Of a stretch of DNA of 64,000 nt, positions 7,896 through 52,201 are shown piece by piece. Both the position numbers and the translations under genes were made by a program. Below the pieces are notes generated by a model that saw nothing but the letters and a program-made list of their open reading frames with translations, was not told the DNA's origin and did no database searches. Source of the stretch: Bdellovibrionia bacterium (GTDB lineage: Bacteria > Bdellovibrionota > Bdellovibrionia > Bdellovibrionales > JAGQZY01); NCBI GenBank assembly GCA_030424715.1, contig JAUHWH010000010.1, forward strand, positions 1-64,000. The letters run 5' to 3'. The first letter of the stretch is position 1. Each line of letters opens with the position of its first letter.

Positions 7896-8975
7896 GTGTT
7901 CAATCTTGTCGATCGCTACATTTCAAAAGCTTTTTTAACCAACTTTGTTGCGGGGCTCGTGGTTTTTTTAACCTTGTTCTTTGTCATCGATTTTATGACT
8001 CAGATCACCCGCTTCGATGTCTCCCTGGGAACTTTGGGGCGTTACTACGGCGCCTACTGCTTTGAAATCATTTATCAGTTTATCCCTGTGGCTGCCATGG
8101 TCGGAGTTATTTTTACCCTCTCAAGTTTAAATAAGAGTCGTGAGCTAACCGCCCTTTTTAGTCTAGGTATGAGTTTGACCAGGGTTCTTATGCCCATCTT
8201 TTTTTGGATTTCTCTGTTGGTGGGATTGTCTTTTTATATTGGGGATCAAGTGGTGCCGGTCACCAAAAAGAAAAAAGATTACATTTATTATGTCGAGATG
8301 AAAAAGCAACCGGGGTTGTATTCAACGGTTAAAACCAACAAGATCTGGTACCGCTCGGATAATATTATTTTTAATATTAAACTTCTGGATCCCGACAAAA
8401 GAAAAGCCTATGGCGTGACGTTTTATTACTTCTCACCGGATTGGAAGCTGCAGCAGGTGATCTCCTCAGGGGAGGCGACGATTGGCGACAATGGTTGGGA
8501 CTTGGACAAAGGGACCATCACCTTGTTTGTGCAAGATTTCAACACCCCTTTGGTAAAAAACTTTGATAGTAAAACCATCGCCATGACTGAAGAGCTGGCA
8601 GACATTCAAACCACCAGTTCTGCGTCGGACTTTTTGAGCTTCCGGCAGTTGGGGCGCTACATTTCAAAAAACAAGGAGGCGGGTCTTAACATGACAGCCT
8701 TTGAAGTCGACTATCACAACAAGCTGAGTTTTCCGTTCACGATCTTCGTGATGGCGCTCATCGGGGTGCCCTTCGTAATCACCCATCAGCGCTCCGGTGG
8801 CATGGCAAAAAATGTGGGGCTCATTCTGTTAATGACCTTTTCCTTTTGGGTGATGCATTCGTCGATGATGTCATTGGGGCGCCATGGGCAGCTCCCCCCG
8901 ATTTTGGCCACATGGGGGCCCAACTTGGTGATGATGCTGGCGACTTTTCTGAGCTTTCGGTGGTCAAAAACTTAA
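7896..8975 (+). CDS. lptG: LptF/LptG family permease (lipopolysaccharide export)
   Basis: This 359-residue inner-membrane protein belongs to the YjgP/YjgQ family, which with LptB extracts lipopolysaccharide for transport to the outer membrane. It begins LVDRYISKAFLTNFVAG, the usual N-terminus of LptG. Three membrane segments fill about residues 12-125, a large periplasmic beta-jellyroll spans about 130-260, and three more helices end the protein (about 275-355). GTG at 7896 is the only start that keeps this N-terminus. No Shine-Dalgarno is visible, and a good promoter ends 5 bases upstream. I see only one LptF/G-type gene here; LptF versus LptG is not certain. The def gene follows 43 bases later. 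Confidence 0.88.
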   Translation: MFNLVDRYISKAFLTNFVAGLVVFLTLFFVIDFMTQITRFDVSLGTLGRYYGAYCFEIIYQFIPVAAMVGVIFTLSSLNKSRELTALFSLGMSLTRVLMPIFFWISLLVGLSFYIGDQVVPVTKKKKDYIYYVEMKKQPGLYSTVKTNKIWYRSDNIIFNIKLLDPDKRKAYGVTFYYFSPDWKLQQVISSGEATIGDNGWDLDKGTITLFVQDFNTPLVKNFDSKTIAMTEELADIQTTSSASDFLSFRQLGRYISKNKEAGLNMTAFEVDYHNKLSFPFTIFVMALIGVPFVITHQRSGGMAKNVGLILLMTFSFWVMHSSMMSLGRHGQLPPILATWGPNLVMMLATFLSFRWSKT

Positions 8976-9018
8976 GGGGCTGATTGCCTTTTCCAGCGGG
9001 ATTCGCTATGGATAGGTC

Positions 9019-9612
9019 ATGGCACTGCTAGATGTTCTAAAATTCCCTGATTCTCGCTTGCGACACAAAGGTCGTAAGGTCGATGAAGTCACGCCCGAGC
9101 TGAAAAAGCTGGCGCAAGATATGCTCGAGACCATGTACCATGAAAAGGGCATTGGGCTGGCGGCGATCCAGGTGGGTGTTGAGGTTCGGCTATTGGTGAT
9201 TGATATCCGCCCTCAAGGTGAAAACGACCGTTATGAGCAAGAAGACGGCATGAGCGACCTCGAAAAACAGGTCACCCAGCCCATCGTGATCTTTAATCCT
9301 GAAATCACCAAAAAAGAGGGCAAAACCACTTATGACGAGGGCTGCCTGAGTGTTCCGGGTTTCTATGAGTCCGTGGTGCGCTCGAAATATATCGAGGTAA
9401 AGGGTTTAGGGCTCGATGGTGAGCCTGTGGAGTACAAGCTCGACGGGCTGCTTTCAATTTGTATGCAGCATGAGATGGACCATTTGGACGGCAAGGTGTT
9501 CATTGACCGGCTGAGCCCCATCAAATCCAACAGAATTAAGGCCAAAATCAAGAAATTTGGCTACCCCACGGCTGAAGACGAAGAGACCGAAGAAGAGCCT
9601 GTCACCGTTTAA
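9019..9612 (+). CDS. def: peptide deformylase
   Basis: The 197-residue enzyme removes the N-formyl group from new proteins. All three motifs are present: GIGLAAIQVGV (motif 1, with Ile where most have Pro), EGCLSVPG (motif 2, metal-ligand Cys) and QHEMDHLDGKVF (motif 3, HExxH with both His ligands and the catalytic Glu). The C-terminal tail is acidic (EDEETEEEPVTV). It lies 120 bases before fmt, the gene for the opposite reaction, which is the common def-fmt pairing. Start ATG 9019 fits the family N-terminus (LLDVLKFPDSRLR). Confidence 0.96.
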   Translation: MALLDVLKFPDSRLRHKGRKVDEVTPELKKLAQDMLETMYHEKGIGLAAIQVGVEVRLLVIDIRPQGENDRYEQEDGMSDLEKQVTQPIVIFNPEITKKEGKTTYDEGCLSVPGFYESVVRSKYIEVKGLGLDGEPVEYKLDGLLSICMQHEMDHLDGKVFIDRLSPIKSNRIKAKIKKFGYPTAEDEETEEEPVTV

Positions 9613-9732
9613 TGGCTTCTTCCCTGCAGGAATGCCTCCGGGTGGCACCCCCAGTTGCCCTTATCCTTTTTTTGTGAGTGACGCTAAACAGTAGCGAACG
9701 TGCGGCGCCTGGTTTTGTGATAGAAACCCGTC

Positions 9733-21414: not shown

Positions 21415-23478
21415 ATGTCTCAGTTGATTGACAACATCGGCAGTATTGCGCCGCTTGCTGGTGGTCTCGGATTGGCTTTCGCGATGTTCCTTTATATAGT
21501 GAACATGCGATTATCCACGGGTGATGCAAAAACGACAGCGATCGGTGAAGAAATTCACTTGGGAGCAATGACCTTTATGAAGGCCGAATACAAGTTATTG
21601 GCTATTTTCGTGGTTGTCGTGGCTGGGATTTTGTTCCCCGTTAAAGGTTGGGAGACCTCTTTTGCCTTTTTCTTTGGTGCCTTAACTTCTGGCACCGCTG
21701 GTTACATCGGTATGAAGGCGGCGACTCGCTCCAATGTTCGTACAACGACGGCAGCGAAAGAAGGCGGTATTGGGCCGGCTCTTCTCGTGGCTTTTCGTGG
21801 TGGCGCGGTCATGGGGCTTTCTGTGGCCTCCTTGGGCCTCGTTGGTCTCGGTATTTTCTACTTTATTTGGGGACAGTATGTTGACACCACGGGTGTGATT
21901 TCTGGTTTCTCCATGGGTGCTTCTTCTATCGCGCTTTTTGCTCGTGTGGGTGGTGGTATCTTTACTAAGGCTGCCGATGTTGGTTCTGACTTGGTTGGTA
22001 AAGTGGAAGCCGGAATTCCTGAAGATGATCCTCGTAACCCAGGTGTGATTGCCGATAACGTTGGTGACAACGTTGGTGATGTGGCCGGTATGGGTGCCGA
22101 TATTTTTGAATCCTATGTGGGTGCCATGGTTGCAGCCATTGCCATTGCGGCGACAATGACTCTCGATCAAATTGCTATTGTTCATCCGGACCGTGAGAGC
22201 GCCCGTACCCTGTTGATGGGGCTTCCGCTTTTGCTTTCTGTTATTGGTCTAGGCGCTTCTTTTGTAGGAATCGTTGGTATGAATGTCTTTAAGTCCATGC
22301 CTCCCGCCAAGGCTTTGCATATGTCTGAGTACACTGCTGCCGTCCTGTTTTTAGGCTTGTCGGCTCTTTCGATCAGTGCACTTGGTTTTGAGTTCTCAAT
22401 TTTCTATCCCATTATCGCTGGTACCATCGCCGGTCTTGCCATTGGCTATGTGACAGAATATTACACAGCCAAAGGCCCCATCTTAAAGATTGCGGCAGCG
22501 TCTAAAACGGGCCCGGCGACAAACATCATCACTGGCTTTGCGGTCGGTCTTGAGTCTTGCGTGGCTCCTCTCATTATCTTGTGTGCGGCTATTTATGCGT
22601 CCCACACTTCGGCGGGTCTTTTCGGAATCGCTTTGGCCGCTGTTGGAATGTTGGCCACTGTTGGTGTGACAATGACAATCGATGCTTACGGCCCCGTTGC
22701 CGATAACGCTGGTGGTATCTCTGAAATGGCGGGTCTTGGCCCAGATGTTCGAGCCATCACCGATGAACTCGATGCCATCGGAAACACCACAGCAGCTATG
22801 GGTAAAGGTTTTGCCATTGGTTCAGCGGCTCTTACAGCCTTGGCCCTTTTTGTGGCCTACGGTTCTTCTGTGGACGCTTATCGCTTGGCTGCGGGTATGG
22901 ACCCACTCACTATGGACATCACTGACCCAATGGTTGTGATTGGGTTGTTCCTCGGTGCGGTTGTTCCCCTTTGGGCGGGAGCGATGACCATGACTTCCGT
23001 TGGTAAAGCGGCAAGTGATATGGTAACCGAGATTCGTCGTCAGTTCCGCGAGATCCCAGGTCTTCTTGAAGGCACGGGTAAACCGGACACCACTCGTTGT
23101 GTTGAAATCTCAACGAAAGCAGCTTTACGTGAAATGATCATGCCTGGGTTGTTGGCTGTGGTCGCTCCCGTGATCGTAGGTCTTCTCCTTGGCCCAGCGG
23201 CTCTTGGTGGAATGCTAGCGGGAGCAACCCTATCGGGTGTCCTTTTGGCTCTTCTTATGTCAAACGCCGGTGGTGCTTGGGATAACGCCAAAAAAGCTAT
23301 CGAAACGGGCGCTATTCCTGGAGAGAAAAAAGGTTCTGAAGCTCACAAAGCCACCGTTGTTGGTGACACCGTGGGTGACCCCTTCAAAGATACAACAGGT
23401 CCTGCAATGAACATTCTTATCAAGTTGATGTCCATCGTGGCCCTCCTCTTGGCCTCAGTGATTGCCCTAAAAGGCTAA
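21415..23478 (+). CDS. hppA: membrane-bound pyrophosphatase, K+-dependent type
   Basis: A 687-residue integral membrane pump with about 16 helices, hydrolysing PPi to move H+ (or Na+). The active-site segments are [40 protein letters not shown] and [19 protein letters not shown]. The segment [13 protein letters not shown] has Ala after GNTTA, where K+-independent enzymes carry Lys, so by the established rule this is a K+-dependent member. The transported ion cannot be read safely from what I see. AAGGAGAAAG lies 7 bases before the ATG. A strong terminator follows at 23506. It is a single-gene unit. Confidence 0.97.
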
Positions 23479-44514: not shown

Positions 44515-45120
44515 ATGATTAAGAAAATCGTAGTTCTCACAGGCATAGGTTTTATCTTAGGTTCATGTTCAAGCATGACCATGATGGTAGAGTCTGAGCC
44601 ACAGCAAGCGACGGTCTATTTAAAAGACGGCAAAAAGTTGAAGAAACTGGGTGAGACCCCTCTAGAACTGAGTGCGAGAGACTTTCCAAATAGTGAACAC
44701 TTCAATTTTTCCATTCAAAAAGAAGGCTATCAGCCCCAAGATGTGTTGATCGACAAACGAAGTATGAGTGCTGAAGCGGAAGTCTTTGCCACGTTACAGA
44801 AGCTTCCTCAGATGAACGAGCAGACGGGCCTTTTGTCTCAAGACACCACAGCCAGTCAGCAACGGAGTTTGTCGAGCATCCAGTCACAGCTTTTGAGCAA
44901 CAATCATTCACAAGCTGAGGTGTTGGCACGCGGCTTTTTAAACAAATTTCCCTATTCCGCGGTGGGATGGAACTTGCTCGGAAATGCCTATCTCCTACAA
45001 AATCGCAATCAGCAGGCTCTCGAGTCTTATCGGAGAGCTCTCGAGTATGATCCTGACAATCAAGACACCCAAAAGATAATTCAGTTCTTGCAAGTGACAC
45101 CCACAAGGAGGAGTCGGTAG
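44515..45120 (+). CDS. lipoprotein with PEGA-like and TPR segments (motor operon gene 1)
   Basis: A lipoprotein of about 201 residues with lipobox ILGSC (Cys18). Residues about 25-85 resemble a PEGA surface-layer domain (ESEPQQATVYLKDGKKLKKL). The C-terminal part has one clear TPR (AVGWNLLGNAYLLQNRNQQ then ALESYRRALEYDPDN). ATG 44515 has AAGGAG 9 bases upstream. The stop codon is immediately followed by the MotA-like ATG (no gap). TPR lipoproteins serve as assembly or coupling factors; here it may link the motor to the outer membrane. Confidence 0.85.
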   Translation: MIKKIVVLTGIGFILGSCSSMTMMVESEPQQATVYLKDGKKLKKLGETPLELSARDFPNSEHFNFSIQKEGYQPQDVLIDKRSMSAEAEVFATLQKLPQMNEQTGLLSQDTTASQQRSLSSIQSQLLSNNHSQAEVLARGFLNKFPYSAVGWNLLGNAYLLQNRNQQALESYRRALEYDPDNQDTQKIIQFLQVTPTRRSR

Positions 45121-45912
45121 ATGTATAATTTGCTAGGCTTCGTCGCCGCTGTCTTCTTTGTTTATACGGCATTGTCGTCCCTTGGGGTGAGCTCTGAGTT
45201 CTACTTTGATGAAGTGGCTTTTTTAGTGGTTTTTGGTGGGACCCTGGCGGCCATGATCATCTCGTTTCCATTTTCCTTCTTGTTGCGCTTCTTTACAGCA
45301 CCCCTTCAGATGTTGCGCAACAAGCGCCCCGACTTGATCTACTCTGTCGAGGTTTTGGTGAGGGTGGCGAGCCAGTCTCACAATAGAAGAGTCTTCTTAA
45401 AAAGACTGCTTGGTGACAAAAAGATTGATGTGTTTCTTAAAGAGGGCGTTGAGTTGTACCTGCTCGATATGTCGCGCGAAGATTTCAAAAATATCCTGAC
45501 AGAGCGAATTTATCGTTCTCGGCAAAGAGACGAAGAGTGGGTCAACCTGTTCCGGCGGTTGGCTAAATACCCTCCGGCCTTTGGGCTTGTGGGAACAGTG
45601 CTTGGGTTGATCAGTCTAATGAGAACGGTGGGGGATGGTGCCAACGCAGCTCAAATCGGGGTCAATATGGCCCTTGCTTTGATCGCAACACTCTATGGTC
45701 TCGCCTTTGCTAACTTTGTATTGGCGCCCATTGCTGAGAACTTTCAAAAAAGTGCAGAAGACCAAAAAGTCTTTCGCGAGCTGTTGCTCGAAGGCTTATT
45801 GATGATATTCGATGATGGCGACTCCCTGGCCGTGCAAGAGATGTTGAACTCATACCTATCACCTCGGCAGAGAGTTGATATCTTAGGTGTCCATATTAAA
45901 GAGAGTGCCTAG
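45121..45912 (+). CDS. MotA-like proton-channel stator subunit (motor operon gene 2)
   Basis: The 263-residue membrane protein has four segments (about 3-22, 33-57, 150-168, 180-203) and a large cytoplasmic loop (about 60-148), the MotA arrangement. YPPAFGLVGTVLGLISLM carries the conserved Pro, and MALALIATLYGLAFANFVLAPIAE matches MotA helix 4. The charged loop (DEEWVNLFRRL) is where MotA contacts FliG. Length is slightly shorter than E. coli MotA (295). It starts at the base after the lipoprotein stop and ends 2 bases before the MotB-like gene. TolQ/ExbB is less likely given MotB and FliG-like partners. Confidence 0.93.
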   Translation: MYNLLGFVAAVFFVYTALSSLGVSSEFYFDEVAFLVVFGGTLAAMIISFPFSFLLRFFTAPLQMLRNKRPDLIYSVEVLVRVASQSHNRRVFLKRLLGDKKIDVFLKEGVELYLLDMSREDFKNILTERIYRSRQRDEEWVNLFRRLAKYPPAFGLVGTVLGLISLMRTVGDGANAAQIGVNMALALIATLYGLAFANFVLAPIAENFQKSAEDQKVFRELLLEGLLMIFDDGDSLAVQEMLNSYLSPRQRVDILGVHIKESA

Positions 45913-45914
45913 CC

Positions 45915-46928
45915 ATGGAACACAATAAGCTTCGTGCTCCCCTTGAAACCGAAGATGTCGAGAACAATTGGGCGATCAGCTACGGCGATATGATCACCCT
46001 TCTGTTGGGCTTCTTTGTGATTTTCTTTAATATCAAATCTGAGACTATGAACCTCACCTTAATTAAAAAGGACTTGGACCAATATTTTGATTCAGCCACT
46101 GGTTCCCAAATCGATCGTTCGTTGGCTCAGCAAGATCCGCAAAAATCACAACATAATATTCCTATGCTGACAGCGGATATGAGCAATGTTTTGCAGATTA
46201 AATCAAATATCGAAGGCGAGCGCATCTTGGTTGAGTTTCCGGGGGTTAGCTTCTTTGGTTCGGCTTCGCATCAGTTAACAAAAGCTGGGGAACAGGCTCT
46301 GAATGATTTTTCAAAAGCCATACACTCCCATTTGGGTTTGTTTCGGCTAGTGGTTCGCGGATACACCGACGGTCGACCACTTCATTCCAAGTCTCGCTAC
46401 AAAGACAATCTCGAACTCTCGGCTTTCCGCTCCATCTCAGCCATTCGATATTTGGCTACCCGGGGGGTGAACCTCGATAAAATGCGAATTGCCGGCTACG
46501 GGGAATCTTCAAAAAGTCGCCAAGATAAAGATGAAAAGTCAGACAATCAACGCAAGGTTGTAATTGTTATCGAGCCCTTGGATCACACAGAAAGAGCACC
46601 AGCAGCGGGTGTCGACGGGCCGGAGTCAGCATCAAAGGCCATCGAGTCAGTGAAGGACGTGAGTATTCCCGGGAGAGACATTGCCTCCGCGACCCCTCAA
46701 GGGCTGGGCGGTGCCATCAAGCATCTGGCAGGAAGTCTGCCGTCCGTCGATCAGCTGCAGCAAGAGGCCTATCAGGTGGTATTCGAGGTCGACTCCCGAA
46801 TCTCTGAGAACCAACTGTACCAGAAGCTTCTCGACTGGATGGTTCGTCAAAAACTGAAGTCCAAAGGCCATTCTGAAAGTAAAATTGAAAAAATGATGAA
46901 AAAACAAAAGAAAGGAGATGGTAAATGA
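45915..46928 (+). CDS. MotB-like stator subunit with OmpA domain (motor operon gene 3)
   Basis: A 337-residue protein. NWAISYGDMITLLLGFFVIFF (about 18-38) is the MotB membrane helix, and D25 is the conserved proton-binding Asp. A periplasmic plug and linker follow, then the OmpA/MotB peptidoglycan-binding domain (about 120-235) with VRGYTDGRPL, LSAFRSISAIRYL and GYGESSK. The C-terminal extension of about 100 residues is not part of ordinary MotB and ends in a Lys-rich tail (SKIEKMMKKQKKGDGK). It overlaps the next gene by 4 bases. The extension may attach to operon partners. Confidence 0.93.
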   Translation: MEHNKLRAPLETEDVENNWAISYGDMITLLLGFFVIFFNIKSETMNLTLIKKDLDQYFDSATGSQIDRSLAQQDPQKSQHNIPMLTADMSNVLQIKSNIEGERILVEFPGVSFFGSASHQLTKAGEQALNDFSKAIHSHLGLFRLVVRGYTDGRPLHSKSRYKDNLELSAFRSISAIRYLATRGVNLDKMRIAGYGESSKSRQDKDEKSDNQRKVVIVIEPLDHTERAPAAGVDGPESASKAIESVKDVSIPGRDIASATPQGLGGAIKHLAGSLPSVDQLQQEAYQVVFEVDSRISENQLYQKLLDWMVRQKLKSKGHSESKIEKMMKKQKKGDGK

Positions 46929-48604
46929 AGTATTTATTAATCTCAATGATCGTCTGTTTTTGTTCCAATGGGTTTGCCTCTCGTTTGATCGAGGTGGAAG
47001 ACTATTATTCGCAAAAGGCGTCGGACTACATTAAGACCCGGTACCCCCGTAAAGCTTTTTCAATTTATGTGAAAGTCGATGCCGAAGACAAACCACAGGT
47101 TAGGCAACCCAACAGCAGTGATCAGCAAGCCTTAAACCTTCCGTATCTTGATCAAGTCGACCCTAAGGCCTTGAGCTTCTGGGACCGCAAAGATGTTTCC
47201 CTTGGCACCTTGATCTCTTATCTTCGTGGTGTTTTTGTAAAAGTCGATATCGATGGTGATTTTTCTGATCAAGAATTAGATCAATTCAAATCTGAACTTT
47301 TTCAACATTTAAAGCTTTCAGAACTATACGATCGGGTCGATATCAACCGTCGACAGTGGCAGGGCGATTCATTTATAAATAAAAGTCGTCCCTTTTTAAT
47401 TGTGGGTGCTCTAGGAATTCTGGGGCTTGCCGCTCTGTTGTTCCTGATTCTCCAATTGGGTGTTAGTCGTCTGGTAAAGGGCTTGGCGCAACCCCTCAGC
47501 GAGATTGGGCGATCCACCGAAAACCTTTCTAACAGCTCATCGATGATGGCTGATTTGGGGGGAGGTTTTCAGCTGGCGAACCAGCGTTGGGACGAAGGGG
47601 TTCTTCCCACTGATCACGAAGAAAAAATAAAGAATGATATCCAACGTCTGTCCCACTTCATGAGTCACCCGGATGCTGAACTGATTCAGACCATTGAGCA
47701 ACTGGGGGCGAAAGATCCTTTAGCCATGGGATCAATATTTGCTCAGATGCCAACCGAGGATCTGCAAGGTCTAATCACTTGGGCACGGGGCGACTGGTGG
47801 CGCGTTGCGATCACCCAGATGACGCCCCTAACGGCCCATTCGGCTGATTGTATTGGAGAAATTTCGAGACTTAATATTAGAAAGCAATTACTCGGTGAAG
47901 TCCATTCCGATGATCTGCAGGATTTAAAGAGAGTCCTGGCTCGCTTGGATGTGAAACACTTCGGAGAGCTTTTTAAAGGTTATAAGTTCGAAGAGGCTCA
48001 GAGCTTTTTGCGGATGTTGCCTCAAACGACCATGATTAACGTTGCCAAGTATCTGTACCCGGGTCAGTGGGCCGAGCTATTAGAAGCCGCCGAATCGGCT
48101 AAGCCTATCTCTTCTGCCCAAGCTAAAAAAGTACACGATAAGGCTTTGGAGATCTGTCCCTTAAAATCAGAAACCGAGATTGCGGGCTACTTTCGAGACG
48201 CCGACCTTTTGAATCTTTTAGATCGCTCCACCACCAAGGATGAACGAGAAATTTATAAAGTGTTAGACGATAGTTCTTGGATCAAGCGAGAGCGAGTGCC
48301 CTTCTACAGTCTCTTTCAGGAGTCCAAAGATGTGTTGGAACGTTTGGGTTCTGATCTTCCTTTAGAATTGTGGGCCTTGGCGATCACAGCTTGTGACCGG
48401 CAAGAGTGTGAGACTTTATTCGAGCATTTTACAGCCAAGCAGCGTTTTATGATGCGCAACTTCAAAACCAAGTTCACCGAGCAGCGTCCCCATGAGATCG
48501 CTGTGGTCGCTGCCAAAAAGAGAATTTTAAACTCGTTGGTGCAAATCAAGTCTCGACTCGAGGTTACAGAGGGTGAAGGAGAGCTCAATGAAGCCGCTGC
48601 TTAG
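46925..48604 (+). CDS. FliF/FliG-like fusion: periplasmic ring-like domain, TM helix and FliG domains (motor operon gene 4)
   Basis: A 559-residue protein. Residues 1-19 are a signal peptide (ISMIVCFCSNGFAS). Residues 20-150 resemble the last periplasmic ring-building domain of FliF, including SIYVKVDAEDKP, FVKVDIDGDFSDQELDQF and YDRVDINRR just before the membrane. The helix is 156-178. Residues about 235-420 look like FliG N/M repeats. Residues about 425-550 match the FliG C-terminal domain (LLDRSTTKDEREIYKVL, HFTAKQRFMMRNFKTKF, VVAAKKRILNSLVQIKSRL). So one chain spans rotor base and torque domain. The call is by eye; charges at the torque helix must be aligned properly. It overlaps the next gene by 17 bases. 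Confidence 0.8.
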   Translation: MKYLLISMIVCFCSNGFASRLIEVEDYYSQKASDYIKTRYPRKAFSIYVKVDAEDKPQVRQPNSSDQQALNLPYLDQVDPKALSFWDRKDVSLGTLISYLRGVFVKVDIDGDFSDQELDQFKSELFQHLKLSELYDRVDINRRQWQGDSFINKSRPFLIVGALGILGLAALLFLILQLGVSRLVKGLAQPLSEIGRSTENLSNSSSMMADLGGGFQLANQRWDEGVLPTDHEEKIKNDIQRLSHFMSHPDAELIQTIEQLGAKDPLAMGSIFAQMPTEDLQGLITWARGDWWRVAITQMTPLTAHSADCIGEISRLNIRKQLLGEVHSDDLQDLKRVLARLDVKHFGELFKGYKFEEAQSFLRMLPQTTMINVAKYLYPGQWAELLEAAESAKPISSAQAKKVHDKALEICPLKSETEIAGYFRDADLLNLLDRSTTKDEREIYKVLDDSSWIKRERVPFYSLFQESKDVLERLGSDLPLELWALAITACDRQECETLFEHFTAKQRFMMRNFKTKFTEQRPHEIAVVAAKKRILNSLVQIKSRLEVTEGEGELNEAAA

Positions 48605-49145
48605 TGCTCTTTGTTTTGTATTTCTTTCGTCAGCGGTACAGGCGGCTCCCGGGCAACTGGCGTTTCGTGGCGGGAGCTGGAGCTTTGCCACAGAGGGTGT
48701 TCGTTCCGGAGGGCAAACCAGTTCTGGTGTGGGTGCCTATTCTTTTGAGGTAGGGTACAGCTTCTACCCTAAATGGCTTGTTGTCGTGGGCTTTAATGTC
48801 ATCATGAGTAGTCTGATCTCAGGAAGTTCAGGCTACGGTTTTGATCTGGGAGGAAAGTACTATCCTCTGACGTCTACGGGTAGTTCCGACTTAGACTCGG
48901 AGTACACCAGCGTAAGTATTTATGAAACCTGGCGACCTTACGTTGGACTTTTCATGCGTCAGCGCCTGTTTGGGCTGGCTCTTGCCACCAGCTATATCGG
49001 TCCCGGAGCCAGTGTTGGCGTCGACTACGCCCTTTCGAAAAACTGGTTGGTCACCGCCGAGTACCGCTACGACTATCTTTACGGTCCGGGCACCACCATT
49101 GCCGTTCAAAACAATATCATGATCGGTGCCGGCTTCGAGTTTTAA
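48588..49145 (+). CDS. small outer-membrane beta-barrel protein (motor operon gene 5)
   Basis: The product of about 185 residues has signal peptide MKPLLSALCFVFLSSAVQA. The mature chain is made of alternating amphipathic strands (YSFEVGYSFYPKWLVVVGFN, SVGVDYALSKNWLVTAEY) and ends with Phe (IMIGAGFEF), the outer-membrane insertion signal. About eight strands are likely. GAAGGAG is 6 bases before ATG 48588, which lies inside the end of the FliG-like gene, so the two are coupled. It may anchor the envelope end of the motor. Confidence 0.85.
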   Translation: MKPLLSALCFVFLSSAVQAAPGQLAFRGGSWSFATEGVRSGGQTSSGVGAYSFEVGYSFYPKWLVVVGFNVIMSSLISGSSGYGFDLGGKYYPLTSTGSSDLDSEYTSVSIYETWRPYVGLFMRQRLFGLALATSYIGPGASVGVDYALSKNWLVTAEYRYDYLYGPGTTIAVQNNIMIGAGFEF

Positions 49146-49195: not shown

Positions 49196-52100
49196 TTAGG
49201 GGCTCAGCTTTACTTTTCGAATGGTGTGGTTGTAGGTGTCACTGATGTAGAGATCACCGTTAGCATCAAAGGTGATATTGGATGGGTAGAGCAGGGTTGC
49301 TGACAGCGCGTTGATTCCTTCTTGAGAAAAATCAAAAGTAGAGCCGCCTGTCGGAGAAGCTTCGGGGTGACCAGCCACAGTTTGCACCGTACCATTGCTG
49401 GTGTTGATACAGCGAACGTTGTGGCGATTTCGTTGGGCGTAGCAAAGTTGAGTGCCACGAATGGCTAGGCCTGTGGGCTGATTGCATCGGGCTGAGGTAG
49501 CAAGAATATTTTCACTGGTACTACCACCGGTTCCTGACAAACAGGCGATCACGGCCACATTGTTGGGATTAATAGTGATGCCTCCGATAGTGATCGGCGC
49601 CACCGTTCGGTTCCAATACCAAATGTGATGATTGTTATAGTCAGAAATAAAGAGGTTGCCTACCGAGTCGATAGCTAGGCCACGAGGGCGATTGAAACGG
49701 GCCGCCGCCTCGGCGACGTTGTTGCCGGGATCACCAGAAGTCCCGCAAAGCCCTAGCACAGTCGTCATGTTACCGGACGAGTCCACTCGGCGAATACAAT
49801 GGTTCATGGTGTCCGCGATGAACATCTCAATGTTTCCACCATTGTTGTAAAACTTGACGGAATTAGGATAGTTCATCTGAGCACTGAGTGCCGGGCCATC
49901 TGCGGTACCCGAGGTGCTCCAATCACCAGCAACTGTTGATATTCGGTCGTTTTGGATGAACTGACCAAAATAAATGGTGTCGCTACCACTGCGATTCCAA
50001 AGTCTAACATTATGCCCGTAGCTGTTGAGCTGCGCCAATGTGCCATCGGTCCAAAGGTCAAAACCATTGTTCATCGAATTGTTACCGTTGATGTTGGTGC
50101 GAAGCCTGGCATTGGTCGGAATGTCATTATCGATAATGGGATCGGCAGCACCATCGATACCCCCAACAACGGTTTGCATTCGGCCGAAGCGATCCACCTC
50201 TCGAATATTAAAGTTATTTTGGTCGGCCACAAAAAGTGATTGGGTGTTGTCGTCAAAGGCGAGGCCCGTTGGAAAGTCAAAAAGGTGCTGGAAGCTTGGT
50301 AAAAGATTGTTTCCGTAGAAACCATTTTTCCCACGACCAGATCCGGCCAAATCGGTGACGTCTCCGGTGGCCACATTAACCTCGCGAACCCGAAAATTGT
50401 TGTAGTCCGATATAATCAATCGAGAGTTGTCTTGGTTGTCCACTGTGATTTGATAAAAGTCGTCGAATCGTGTACTGGCCAAACCAAGACTCGAGCCATT
50501 ATAGCCACCGGCAGGGTTGTTTATTAATCCAATTTGGCCAGCGACTACGGTCAGCCCATCAATGGTGATGGGGCCAGCGGAGTTGTTACCAAAAACCAAG
50601 TCGTCGGTGCGTCGAGCAGTGACATAAATCTCGTTACCATTGCGAACGGTGATAGAAGAGGGCTCAGCCACATCCGAACTCAAGGGGTTGCCAGCGGCGG
50701 GGGTGGCTCCGTTGCCACCATCTCCCATAATCGTGCTTATCATACCTGGGTTGACGGTCACTTGATCGGCATTGCCGTTCCAAAAAACGATAGGCGCAGC
50801 CGTGGTGTTTACAAATCGAACGCGATCATGGGTGTATGAAGTAATGTATAATCCATTGCTATCGACAAAGAGTCCGTATGGGGTGCCAACACCCGAGGAT
50901 GTAGGCACAGCATTCTCACCGGCAACATCGTTGCCTCCGTCACCGGCCGCCGTGTAGGCAAGGTCGGTTGTAAGGTCCCAGCGTTTCACACGATGTTCGT
51001 TGTAGCAGGTGACATAGAGGTTGGTACCAAGGTTCGCCAAGTGAATGGGACGATCGCAGTCATGGTTAAAAGCAGTATCACCATCGGCATGGGAAGGACC
51101 GCCACCGAGGCCAACAAATACCGTTCCACTTGAGTTGATATACTTCACTTGGTTGCCGTCGTATTCGGCGACGTAGAGACGATCGTTTCCGTCGTCGTAC
51201 CAAAGGCCCCTTGGGCTATTGAGTGGCGAGAGTGTAGCCTGTAGAGCGGCACTCCCTGTGGCGTCTTCACCGGTACCGGCCACCACTTGGATGGCTCCGG
51301 CAGCAATGGTTTGTCCAATGCGAGAGACGGCCGCTCCAGAGCGGTTCCAAAACCACACCACATTGTTTTCTATGTCCGAGATAAACAAGTTTCCGGCAGC
51401 ATCTTGGGTGTGAGCGAAGGGGCGAAATCGTAACGGGAAAGTGGTATTGTTGACGGCCAGTCCACTTCCTTTGTGGGCACTACCGGCAAAGGTACAGATT
51501 TGGCCCGTGCTCAGTTGGTTGCAAGCTTGCGGAAAATAATTCACTTCGACATTCCATGTCTCGGAGTCTGTTTTGGTTCCGTCACTGACTGTTAAAGTCA
51601 CAGTATTAGCACCCACAACCGACGCATCACCTGAAAGGACTCCAGTGCCAGAGGTCCCTGTCACCCGAGGCGAAGTGGCTCCATTAAAAGTCCAAGTGTA
51701 GGTGAGGGTGTCGCCGTTGGGGTCAGTGGCCGAGGCTTGAATATTGGTGGTCGAGTCATAAGAAACTTTCGGGGTTCCTGTGGTGATCGCCGTTATCACG
51801 GGAGGACCATTGACTTTGATGGTCCATGTTTTTTGACGAGAGGCAGATCCATCGCTGGCGGTGGCGACCAGGGTATGGTTACCGACGGTGCCAAGAGTAC
51901 CGGTTACTGAAAAACTATTAACCGCGGCAACGGGTGCGCCGTCATAGGTCCACGAATAGCTAACCACATTGGGGATTGGAGCCACAGCACTTATGGTGAA
52001 ATCTCTACTGTCTCCGATTTCGATAGTGACGTTGGTTTGCTCTGGAGTGGAACTGATGATTTGTAGACTGTCGGCATTCGAGCTGCCACTACCACCACCG

Positions 52101-52201
52101 CCGATAAGGAGATCAAGACTGTCGTCCTCCTGCTTACAAGAAGACAGAGTAAAACCGATTACCAAAGACAACAGAATATAAAATAAACGTCGATTCATCA
52201 T
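49196..52201 (-). CDS. large lipoprotein with Ig/PKD-like domains and NHL beta-propeller
   Basis: A 1001-residue lipoprotein (lipobox TLSSCKQ). Two Ig/PKD-like domains follow (about 45-130 and 132-222, each with VSYSWTYDG or LTYTWTFNG and ending in a WTIKV or WNVEV strand). A CNQLSTGQICTFAGS segment starts a long NHL-type propeller region (about 230-1000), with repeating motifs such as FISDIENNVVWFWNR, LYVAEYDGNQVKYIN and LYISDTYNHTIRKV. The tandem NHL repeats probably make two propellers. Such proteins bind other surface molecules; the ligand is unknown. A Shine-Dalgarno is not obvious. It is a single-gene unit. Confidence 0.92.
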   Translation of the reverse strand: MMNRRLFYILLSLVIGFTLSSCKQEDDSLDLLIGGGGSGSSNADSLQIISSTPEQTNVTIEIGDSRDFTISAVAPIPNVVSYSWTYDGAPVAAVNSFSVTGTLGTVGNHTLVATASDGSASRQKTWTIKVNGPPVITAITTGTPKVSYDSTTNIQASATDPNGDTLTYTWTFNGATSPRVTGTSGTGVLSGDASVVGANTVTLTVSDGTKTDSETWNVEVNYFPQACNQLSTGQICTFAGSAHKGSGLAVNNTTFPLRFRPFAHTQDAAGNLFISDIENNVVWFWNRSGAAVSRIGQTIAAGAIQVVAGTGEDATGSAALQATLSPLNSPRGLWYDDGNDRLYVAEYDGNQVKYINSSGTVFVGLGGGPSHADGDTAFNHDCDRPIHLANLGTNLYVTCYNEHRVKRWDLTTDLAYTAAGDGGNDVAGENAVPTSSGVGTPYGLFVDSNGLYITSYTHDRVRFVNTTAAPIVFWNGNADQVTVNPGMISTIMGDGGNGATPAAGNPLSSDVAEPSSITVRNGNEIYVTARRTDDLVFGNNSAGPITIDGLTVVAGQIGLINNPAGGYNGSSLGLASTRFDDFYQITVDNQDNSRLIISDYNNFRVREVNVATGDVTDLAGSGRGKNGFYGNNLLPSFQHLFDFPTGLAFDDNTQSLFVADQNNFNIREVDRFGRMQTVVGGIDGAADPIIDNDIPTNARLRTNINGNNSMNNGFDLWTDGTLAQLNSYGHNVRLWNRSGSDTIYFGQFIQNDRISTVAGDWSTSGTADGPALSAQMNYPNSVKFYNNGGNIEMFIADTMNHCIRRVDSSGNMTTVLGLCGTSGDPGNNVAEAAARFNRPRGLAIDSVGNLFISDYNNHHIWYWNRTVAPITIGGITINPNNVAVIACLSGTGGSTSENILATSARCNQPTGLAIRGTQLCYAQRNRHNVRCINTSNGTVQTVAGHPEASPTGGSTFDFSQEGINALSATLLYPSNITFDANGDLYISDTYNHTIRKVKLSP

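Follow-up and report, generated by a model that had tools for sequence, protein, structure and literature searches.

A conserved gene cassette of Bdellovibrionota that may encode an envelope motor built from flagellar-type parts

Introduction

FliG is the torque receiver of the flagellum. What, then, is the role of a FliG-like protein encoded together with its own MotA- and MotB-type genes and apart from flagellar genes? The question is raised by five adjacent genes (A to E, 44515–49145) in a stretch of 64,000 nucleotides from a Bdellovibrionia bacterium (assembly GCA_030424715.1, contig JAUHWH010000010.1, positions 1 to 64,000 of the forward strand), which we call the window. A first-pass annotation of the window, made from the sequence alone, had proposed a proton-driven envelope motor with a membrane-anchored FliF/FliG-like rotor. 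Sequence profiles and structural models lead us to a similar reading, to which we give a probability of about 0.6: the cassette would encode a dedicated proton-driven envelope machine, made of flagellar-motor parts that act on their own rotor, and linked to the outer membrane and to a surface protein. We regard a dedicated motor with its own rotor as quite likely, and an output coupled to the outer membrane as probable. Below, we present the components, their conservation, and the explanations that compete with this one.

Organization of the cassette

The five genes are all on the plus strand, with the order, coordinates and spacing given by the first-pass annotation. Gene A (44515–45120) starts after an AAGGAG ribosome-binding site and encodes an outer-membrane-type lipoprotein with the lipobox LGSC, a PEGA-like domain and TPR (Pfam matches TPR_1, 4.9e-10, and PEGA, 0.0038). 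Gene B (45121–45912) follows without a gap and encodes a full-length MotA-type channel subunit including the cytoplasmic domain (MotA_ExbB, 6.3e-23). Its residues 4–248 align with the solved flagellar MotA (E 1.4e-30), and this near full-length alignment identifies it as MotA-type rather than TolQ/ExbB-type. Two bases further, gene C (45915–46928) encodes a MotB-type subunit with a plug and transmembrane segment followed by an OmpA-like peptidoglycan domain (MotB_plug, 4.5e-8; OmpA, 2.7e-10). The transmembrane motif of the window protein, WAISYGDM, includes the channel aspartate, and this proton-carrying residue is invariant in the 37 of 37 D-linked C orthologues listed, within the same motif or close variants. 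The window protein also has a C-terminal extension of about 110 aa (46570–46928; the counterpart gene at locus L037 spans 8680–9693), which is seen in the source genus and missing in most orthologues (about 217–270 aa). Gene D (46925–48604), discussed below, overlaps C by 4 bases. Gene E (48588–49145) overlaps D by 17 bases and encodes an outer-membrane beta-barrel (OMP_b-brl, 1.2e-5; OmpW/Opacity weak). By type, A and E are thus predicted outer membrane components. Searches with Pfam and NCBIfam agree with the identities initially proposed for A, B, C and E. As the annotation had stated, no flagellar gene is nearby: none was recognized among the open reading frames of the window that were scanned. 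A FliA-type promoter was not seen by eye in the bases upstream of gene A, where no systematic test was made.

Gene D resembles FliF joined to FliG

The protein encoded by D has three parts. Residues 20–145 (46982–47359, plus strand, as for the other parts) are predicted to form a periplasmic alpha-beta-beta-alpha-beta domain similar to RBM3 of FliF, with the elements H20–39, E45–53, E100–109, H115–128 and E137–142 in the AlphaFold model. A single transmembrane helix is expected at residues 156–178 (47390–47458), from the sequence and from the model, in which the helix spans residues 150–187. The remainder (residues 229–550, 47609–48574) is an all-helical cytoplasmic FliG-like part, with FliG_C at about 452–540. 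The N-terminus is signal-peptide-like and there is only one RBM; the first transmembrane helix, RBM1 and RBM2 of FliF are absent.

The initial assignment of D to FliF and FliG is weak when the window sequence is taken alone, and holds for the protein family, for a paralogue in the same genome and for the structural model. Among 26 relatives, 15 match FliG_C (best E 1.2e-6), and the next Pfam family, MgtE_N, is matched by four. FliG_M is found once among the 26, weakly; nevertheless, the AlphaFold model aligns to full FliG. When the family profile is compared with the Protein Data Bank (PDB), FliG C-domain chains come first, at E-values of only 0.01–0.04 (1qc7, E 0.01). The model itself (mean predicted local distance difference test score, pLDDT, of 78) consists of the periplasmic domain, a long helix bearing the transmembrane segment and the all-helical cytoplasmic part, and its 26 best PDB matches in Foldseek are all FliG or FliF (S-ring/RBM3). 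Its C-terminal domain superimposes on FliG_C of 1qc7 with a TM-score of 0.82 (root-mean-square deviation 2.1 Å), and D aligns with FliG of the MotAB–FliG complex 8ucs with a TM-score of 0.74. Foldseek E-values for whole D are modest (best 9.7e-4), probably because its domains are flexibly placed. The positions of the FliG torque ridge are partly retained in the family: the equivalent of R281 is K or R in 51 of 51 sequences, that of D288 is E or D in 40 of 51, and that of D289 is mostly non-acidic.

The paralogue provides a bridge to canonical flagellar proteins. The genome has a second whole five-gene cassette on another contig (locus L034, 8419–12827, i.e. about 144418–148826 of G000:C18), whose D-type protein, D2, matches FliG_C with 54 bits. 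D2 belongs with D3 proteins to a group (D2/D3) from this genome and other members of the order, in which Pfam recognizes FliG_C in 9/9, FliG_M in 7/9 and FliG_N in 6/9 sequences; the profile of this group matches FliG in the PDB with an E-value of 2.6e-30. In the D2/D3 proteins, a stretch matching FliF from RBM3 through the second transmembrane helix to the FliF tail (E 2.4e-5) is followed by one that matches the N, M and C domains of FliG (E 3.5e-17). In turn, hhalign aligned D with D2/D3 end to end over 504 columns (probability 98.4 %, E 5.3e-15), and D with FliF (P 1.8e-4). The direct alignment of D with FliG of this phylum only is weak (P 0.012), a result that probably reflects how shallow the FliG alignment is; the D2/D3 bridge resolved this. 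Taken together, profiles and model make the FliF–FliG-like architecture of D well supported. The motor idea hinged on finding FliG in profile and structure searches of D, and both retrieved it. The D2/D3 proteins suggest that a neighbouring fliF–fliG pair was duplicated and fused, and that the N-terminal part of FliF was lost.

Other FliG_C genes were also noted. Small proteins (about 150 aa) that consist of FliG_C on its own are encoded at L003 (1399–1860), L135 (7035–7496), L136 (7772–8218) and L175; those of L003 and L135 sit in a similar small gene set.

Conservation of the cassette

We found D in 69 of 369 Bdellovibrionota genomes, representing 47 genera; a single sequence and a 26-row profile gave the same count. 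When GTDB contigs were scanned with the D sequence alone, no relatives were retrieved at first. A nine-row alignment worked as a query, the 26-row one being too diverse, and retrieved 32 D loci from metagenome-assembled genomes (MAGs) titled Bdellovibrionota or from MAGs of unassigned bacteria or Proteobacteria. Occurrence outside Bdellovibrionota was probed by two peptide patterns over GTDB contigs, which distant forms could escape.

The survey of genome neighbourhoods in Bdellovibrionota revealed the order A-B-C-D-E in about 30 loci having enough flanking DNA, with an orthologue of gene A heading the cassette and one of gene E closing it. This recurrence excludes a chance arrangement. Variants of the order also exist. 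At L163 (7416–15935), B-C-D are kept and A and E lie about 4 kb away on the opposite strand, with a homologue of the neighbouring gene F in between; the linkage is preserved despite the broken operon. At L048, D and E are present without adjoining A to C. The part of the earlier proposal that stands is that a MotA-like, a MotB-like and a FliF–FliG-like protein form, with outer-membrane parts, a conserved unit apart from flagellar genes. The independence of this unit is less clear at the level of genomes, since it co-occurs with flagella nearly everywhere (see below).

A sixth component

The first-pass annotation overlooked the second cassette, the canonical flagellar genes that the genome carries outside the window, and gene F. 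The latter (49196–52201, minus strand) lies just downstream of the cassette and encodes a lipoprotein of 1001 aa with two Ig-like domains and tandem NHL/teneurin-type beta-propellers (Pfam matches NHL, 1.5e-20, and TEN_NHL, 3.2e-12), a candidate surface effector or adhesin. In 28 loci a homologue adjoins the cassette, with no fixed side or strand. Of 20 genomes tested, 14 have D; 13 of these also have F, invariably next to D, and none of the six without D has full-length F. Linkage and co-occurrence make F a sixth, conserved component of the cassette. The AlphaFold model of F (pLDDT 81.6) retrieves teneurin-like proteins and LRP6 in Foldseek, i.e. surface binding proteins, and we infer that F is at the cell surface. 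Where the NHL-type F is missing and enough flanking DNA is available, other Ig/FG-GAP giants occupy the place. A gene for a 1212-aa FG-GAP/Ig lipoprotein, for example, adjoins the L034 cassette.

Nearly all NHL-type F proteins have in common a hydrophobic motif shortly after the lipid-bearing cysteine (in the window, within 52130–52201, minus strand), which could possibly be a docking or sorting signal. A similar motif is seen in the replacement lipoproteins of L161 (3736) and L137 (8265, 15117), whose domain make-up is different.

A possible machine and its use

B and C are a MotA/MotB-type pair with channel aspartate and peptidoglycan anchor, and the FliG-like part of D is predicted to lie on the same side of the membrane as the MotA torque domain. 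In the machine that we envisage, proton flow would turn a B5:C2 unit, the cytoplasmic face of B would push on FliG_C of D, and an oligomer of D in the inner membrane would hand the motion on to A and E by means of its ring domain in the periplasm. These may pass it on to F, or to the equivalent Ig/propeller lipoprotein, at the surface. The likely use would be moving or loading an adhesin at the cell surface, for instance during gliding or in contact with prey or surfaces.

The most far-reaching version of this reading is that the cassette is the first described non-flagellar MotAB–FliG rotary machine, with a FliF–FliG fusion rotor, its own stators and interchangeable propeller/Ig surface lipoproteins, serving as candidate engine of gliding or prey contact in Bdellovibrionota and with a diverged D3 form in Bdellovibrio. 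We give this version a little less than an even chance. Only experiments demonstrating that the system renders no service to the flagellum would make it categorically new; otherwise it is a variant of the MotAB–FliG engine. If the reading is true, the torque engine of the flagellum has been uncoupled from it and put to another use. In PMC12505986, stators of the flagellar type form a clade considered flagellar.

Of the possible tasks, gliding is the likeliest, but it is a tentative idea to which we give slightly less than even odds, and no result ties the cassette to it. The idea is attractive because a 2026 review (PMC13104615) describes the gliding motor of Bdellovibrio, its adhesins and its force transmission as unidentified and as a major open challenge. 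The cassette supplies specific candidate genes for this question.

The genus Bdellovibrio itself (g7) has no D; it carries a D3 gene instead, in a cluster with MotA, MotB and a lipoprotein resembling A. Loci L128–L132 of this genus and its relatives have D3 with the lipoprotein and MotAB, and a gene for a SpoIIE-phosphatase/HAMP sensor lies beside D3 in several of them. Judging by the spacing of the MotA genes, the D3-linked pair of genome G133 is probably motA2B2 of Bdellovibrio. This name corresponds to Bd3021/Bd3020 in PMC11323537. Some of the 'extra' motAB pairs of Bdellovibrio may not be plain flagellar stators.

Relation to the flagellum and other explanations

A number of observations weigh against a dedicated envelope machine. 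Almost all genomes with D (68 of 69) also have FlhA, including 46 of the 46 good ones in that list. The motAB pairs of Bdellovibrio have been described as flagellar stators that contribute to flagellar motility (a title cited in PMC11323537). The D protein of the window, taken alone, has MgtE_N as its sole Pfam match (E 0.0024), retrieves nothing useful from the PDB in a single-sequence search, and has N at the position equivalent to D288. Finally, G065, the genome that seems to have the cassette without a flagellum, is a single MAG in which D is cut by the end of the contig.

The co-occurrence with flagella is the main argument for regarding the cassette as an accessory module of the flagellum, adding extra stators and a FliG-bearing ring to the polar motor, with the outer-membrane parts serving its sheath or outer disks. 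We consider this unlikely. D is indeed missing from FliG-less genomes, save the uncertain G065, but most of the listed genomes without a flagellum are small, and lifestyle and genome size confound the co-occurrence. Conversely, FliG_C is found in 334 of the 369 genomes and D in 69, which means that most flagellated relatives do without D. The accessory module also fits the reported aid of Bdellovibrio motAB pairs, one of them probably beside D3, to swimming, as well as the FliG-like domain and torque-ridge charges kept in D. Against it stand the absence of flagellar genes near the cassette, the linkage to a surface-type lipoprotein and a barrel, and the presence of canonical flagellar genes in the same genome. 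The canonical fliF–fliG operon is on another contig than the window, flhA is also present, and the canonical MotA carries a PomA-type torque loop. Since these genes are all there, the cassette does not replace flagellar ones. In particular, we rejected a replacement of flagellar fliG by D, a substitution that the first-pass annotation had considered fatal to an independent motor.

The contacts of a flagellar motor are not simply retained either. The FliM-binding motif EHPQ is present in 27 of the 27 canonical FliG of the phylum, whereas the aligned positions of D2/D3 have other residues, and the D family cannot be reliably aligned there. In flagellar motors, MotA contacts FliG by R90–D288/D289 and E98–R281 (PMC12505986). 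When we aligned the loop with that of the canonical MotA of the genome, the R90/E98-type torque motif was missing from B, from other D-linked MotA and from the MotA linked to D2/D3. Given that B is without this motif and that the genome's canonical MotA does have the PomA-type loop, the contact appears rewired, and a matched rewiring of the flagellar contact between B and D is plausible from these alignments. Another MotA-type gene of the genome, its fourth (L063, G000:C17:217089–217445), is neither canonical nor linked to D.

G065 is a MAG of 1.6 Mb (91 % complete) in which A-B-C are followed by the beginning of D (L178/L171). It has no FlhA and no canonical FliG, only a 149-aa FliG_C frame, and none of the tested flagellar structural genes was found in the about 680 kb of its 1.6 Mb examined. 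We considered a mis-binning of the contig bearing the cassette; it is not a composition outlier, so that composition gives no hint of this. G065 is therefore suggestive of a cassette without a flagellum, which would be at odds with an accessory role.

Alternatively, B, C and D could energize outer-membrane transport or assembly, powering the export, docking or recycling of F-type lipoproteins via E, in the manner of Tol–Pal or Ton. The motif after the lipid cysteine would make sense in this context as a signal for docking or sorting, because otherwise unrelated F-type giants have it in common, and a small barrel (E) with a TPR lipoprotein (A) would be suitable partners. We find this improbable, given that B is MotA-type and not TolQ/ExbB-type. 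Moreover, we know of no FliG-type rotor in Tol, Ton or Exb systems, and the barrel of the 185-aa E would leave little room for exporting a protein of 1000 aa.

An explanation with very little credit is that D is a membrane-anchored scaffold or regulator with an armadillo-like FliG/MgtE_N fold, in an operon that senses envelope load. The fold of MgtE_N resembles the middle domain of FliG, so the best score of the window D and the weakness of FliG_M in its family are consistent with it; the family-wide preference for FliG_C over MgtE_N (15 versus 4 of 26), the succession of RBM and FliG parts as in FliF–FliG, and the steady pairing with MotA/MotB are not. A Zorya-type anti-phage system can be dismissed: C matches ZorB profiles (1.9e-15), but these are MotB-like and C fits MotB/MotD families better, B has no ZorA match, and A, D, E and F match no defence model, which leaves the ZorB-like match of C on its own. 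Further from the cassette, the window encodes a membrane-bound proton-pumping pyrophosphatase (21415–23478).

Comparison with known systems

The dedicated envelope machine that we favour can be compared with known motors and rotors. The Agl–Glt system of Myxococcus also has a motor of the MotA/TolQ family, peptidoglycan-binding subunits and outer-membrane partners that move surface adhesions. To our knowledge, it has no FliG-type rotor. AglRS, in addition, falls in the non-flagellar GIT clade (PMC12505986), unlike gene B, which is of the flagellar MotA type. Gliding by GldLM and type IX secretion likewise relies on a 5:2 motor, coupled to outer-membrane parts and to an adhesin that moves on the surface, but GldLM resembles MotAB without homology (PMC13104615) and has no FliG or FliF domain. 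The GldL, GldM, GldK and GldN families gave no Pfam or NCBIfam match in A to E.

Joining FliF to FliG has precedents. An engineered one-chain FliF–FliG fusion of Salmonella builds a working rotor (cited in PMC4768692), and one of Vibrio forms rings (PMC11481574). In contrast to D, these laboratory fusions are engineered, comprise full FliF and work inside the flagellum. In nature, a single chain of Chlamydia combines a truncated FliF with a FliG domain (PMC4768692); we compared this fusion with D by architecture only. That paper deals with an organism that lacks flagella and has few flagellar genes, and it ties the fusion tentatively to the injectisome; the fusion has only the M region of FliG and, as far as described there, comes without MotAB, TPR lipoprotein, barrel or propeller protein. 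The first-pass annotation knew of no described system of this composition. The Chlamydia fusion qualifies this statement for D and leaves it standing for the operon: our searches of the open-access literature returned no account of MotAB genes sharing an operon with a FliF–FliG fusion and outer-membrane parts.

The flagellar motor itself is also among the closest systems. Its RBM3-like domain and transmembrane helix (FliF), its FliG_C, its MotA, and its MotB with proton aspartate and peptidoglycan domain all have counterparts in the cassette. The cassette differs in having FliF and FliG in one chain, without RBM1, RBM2 and the first transmembrane helix. Finally, in place of the genes for export apparatus, rod and hook, it has outer-membrane and surface-type genes.

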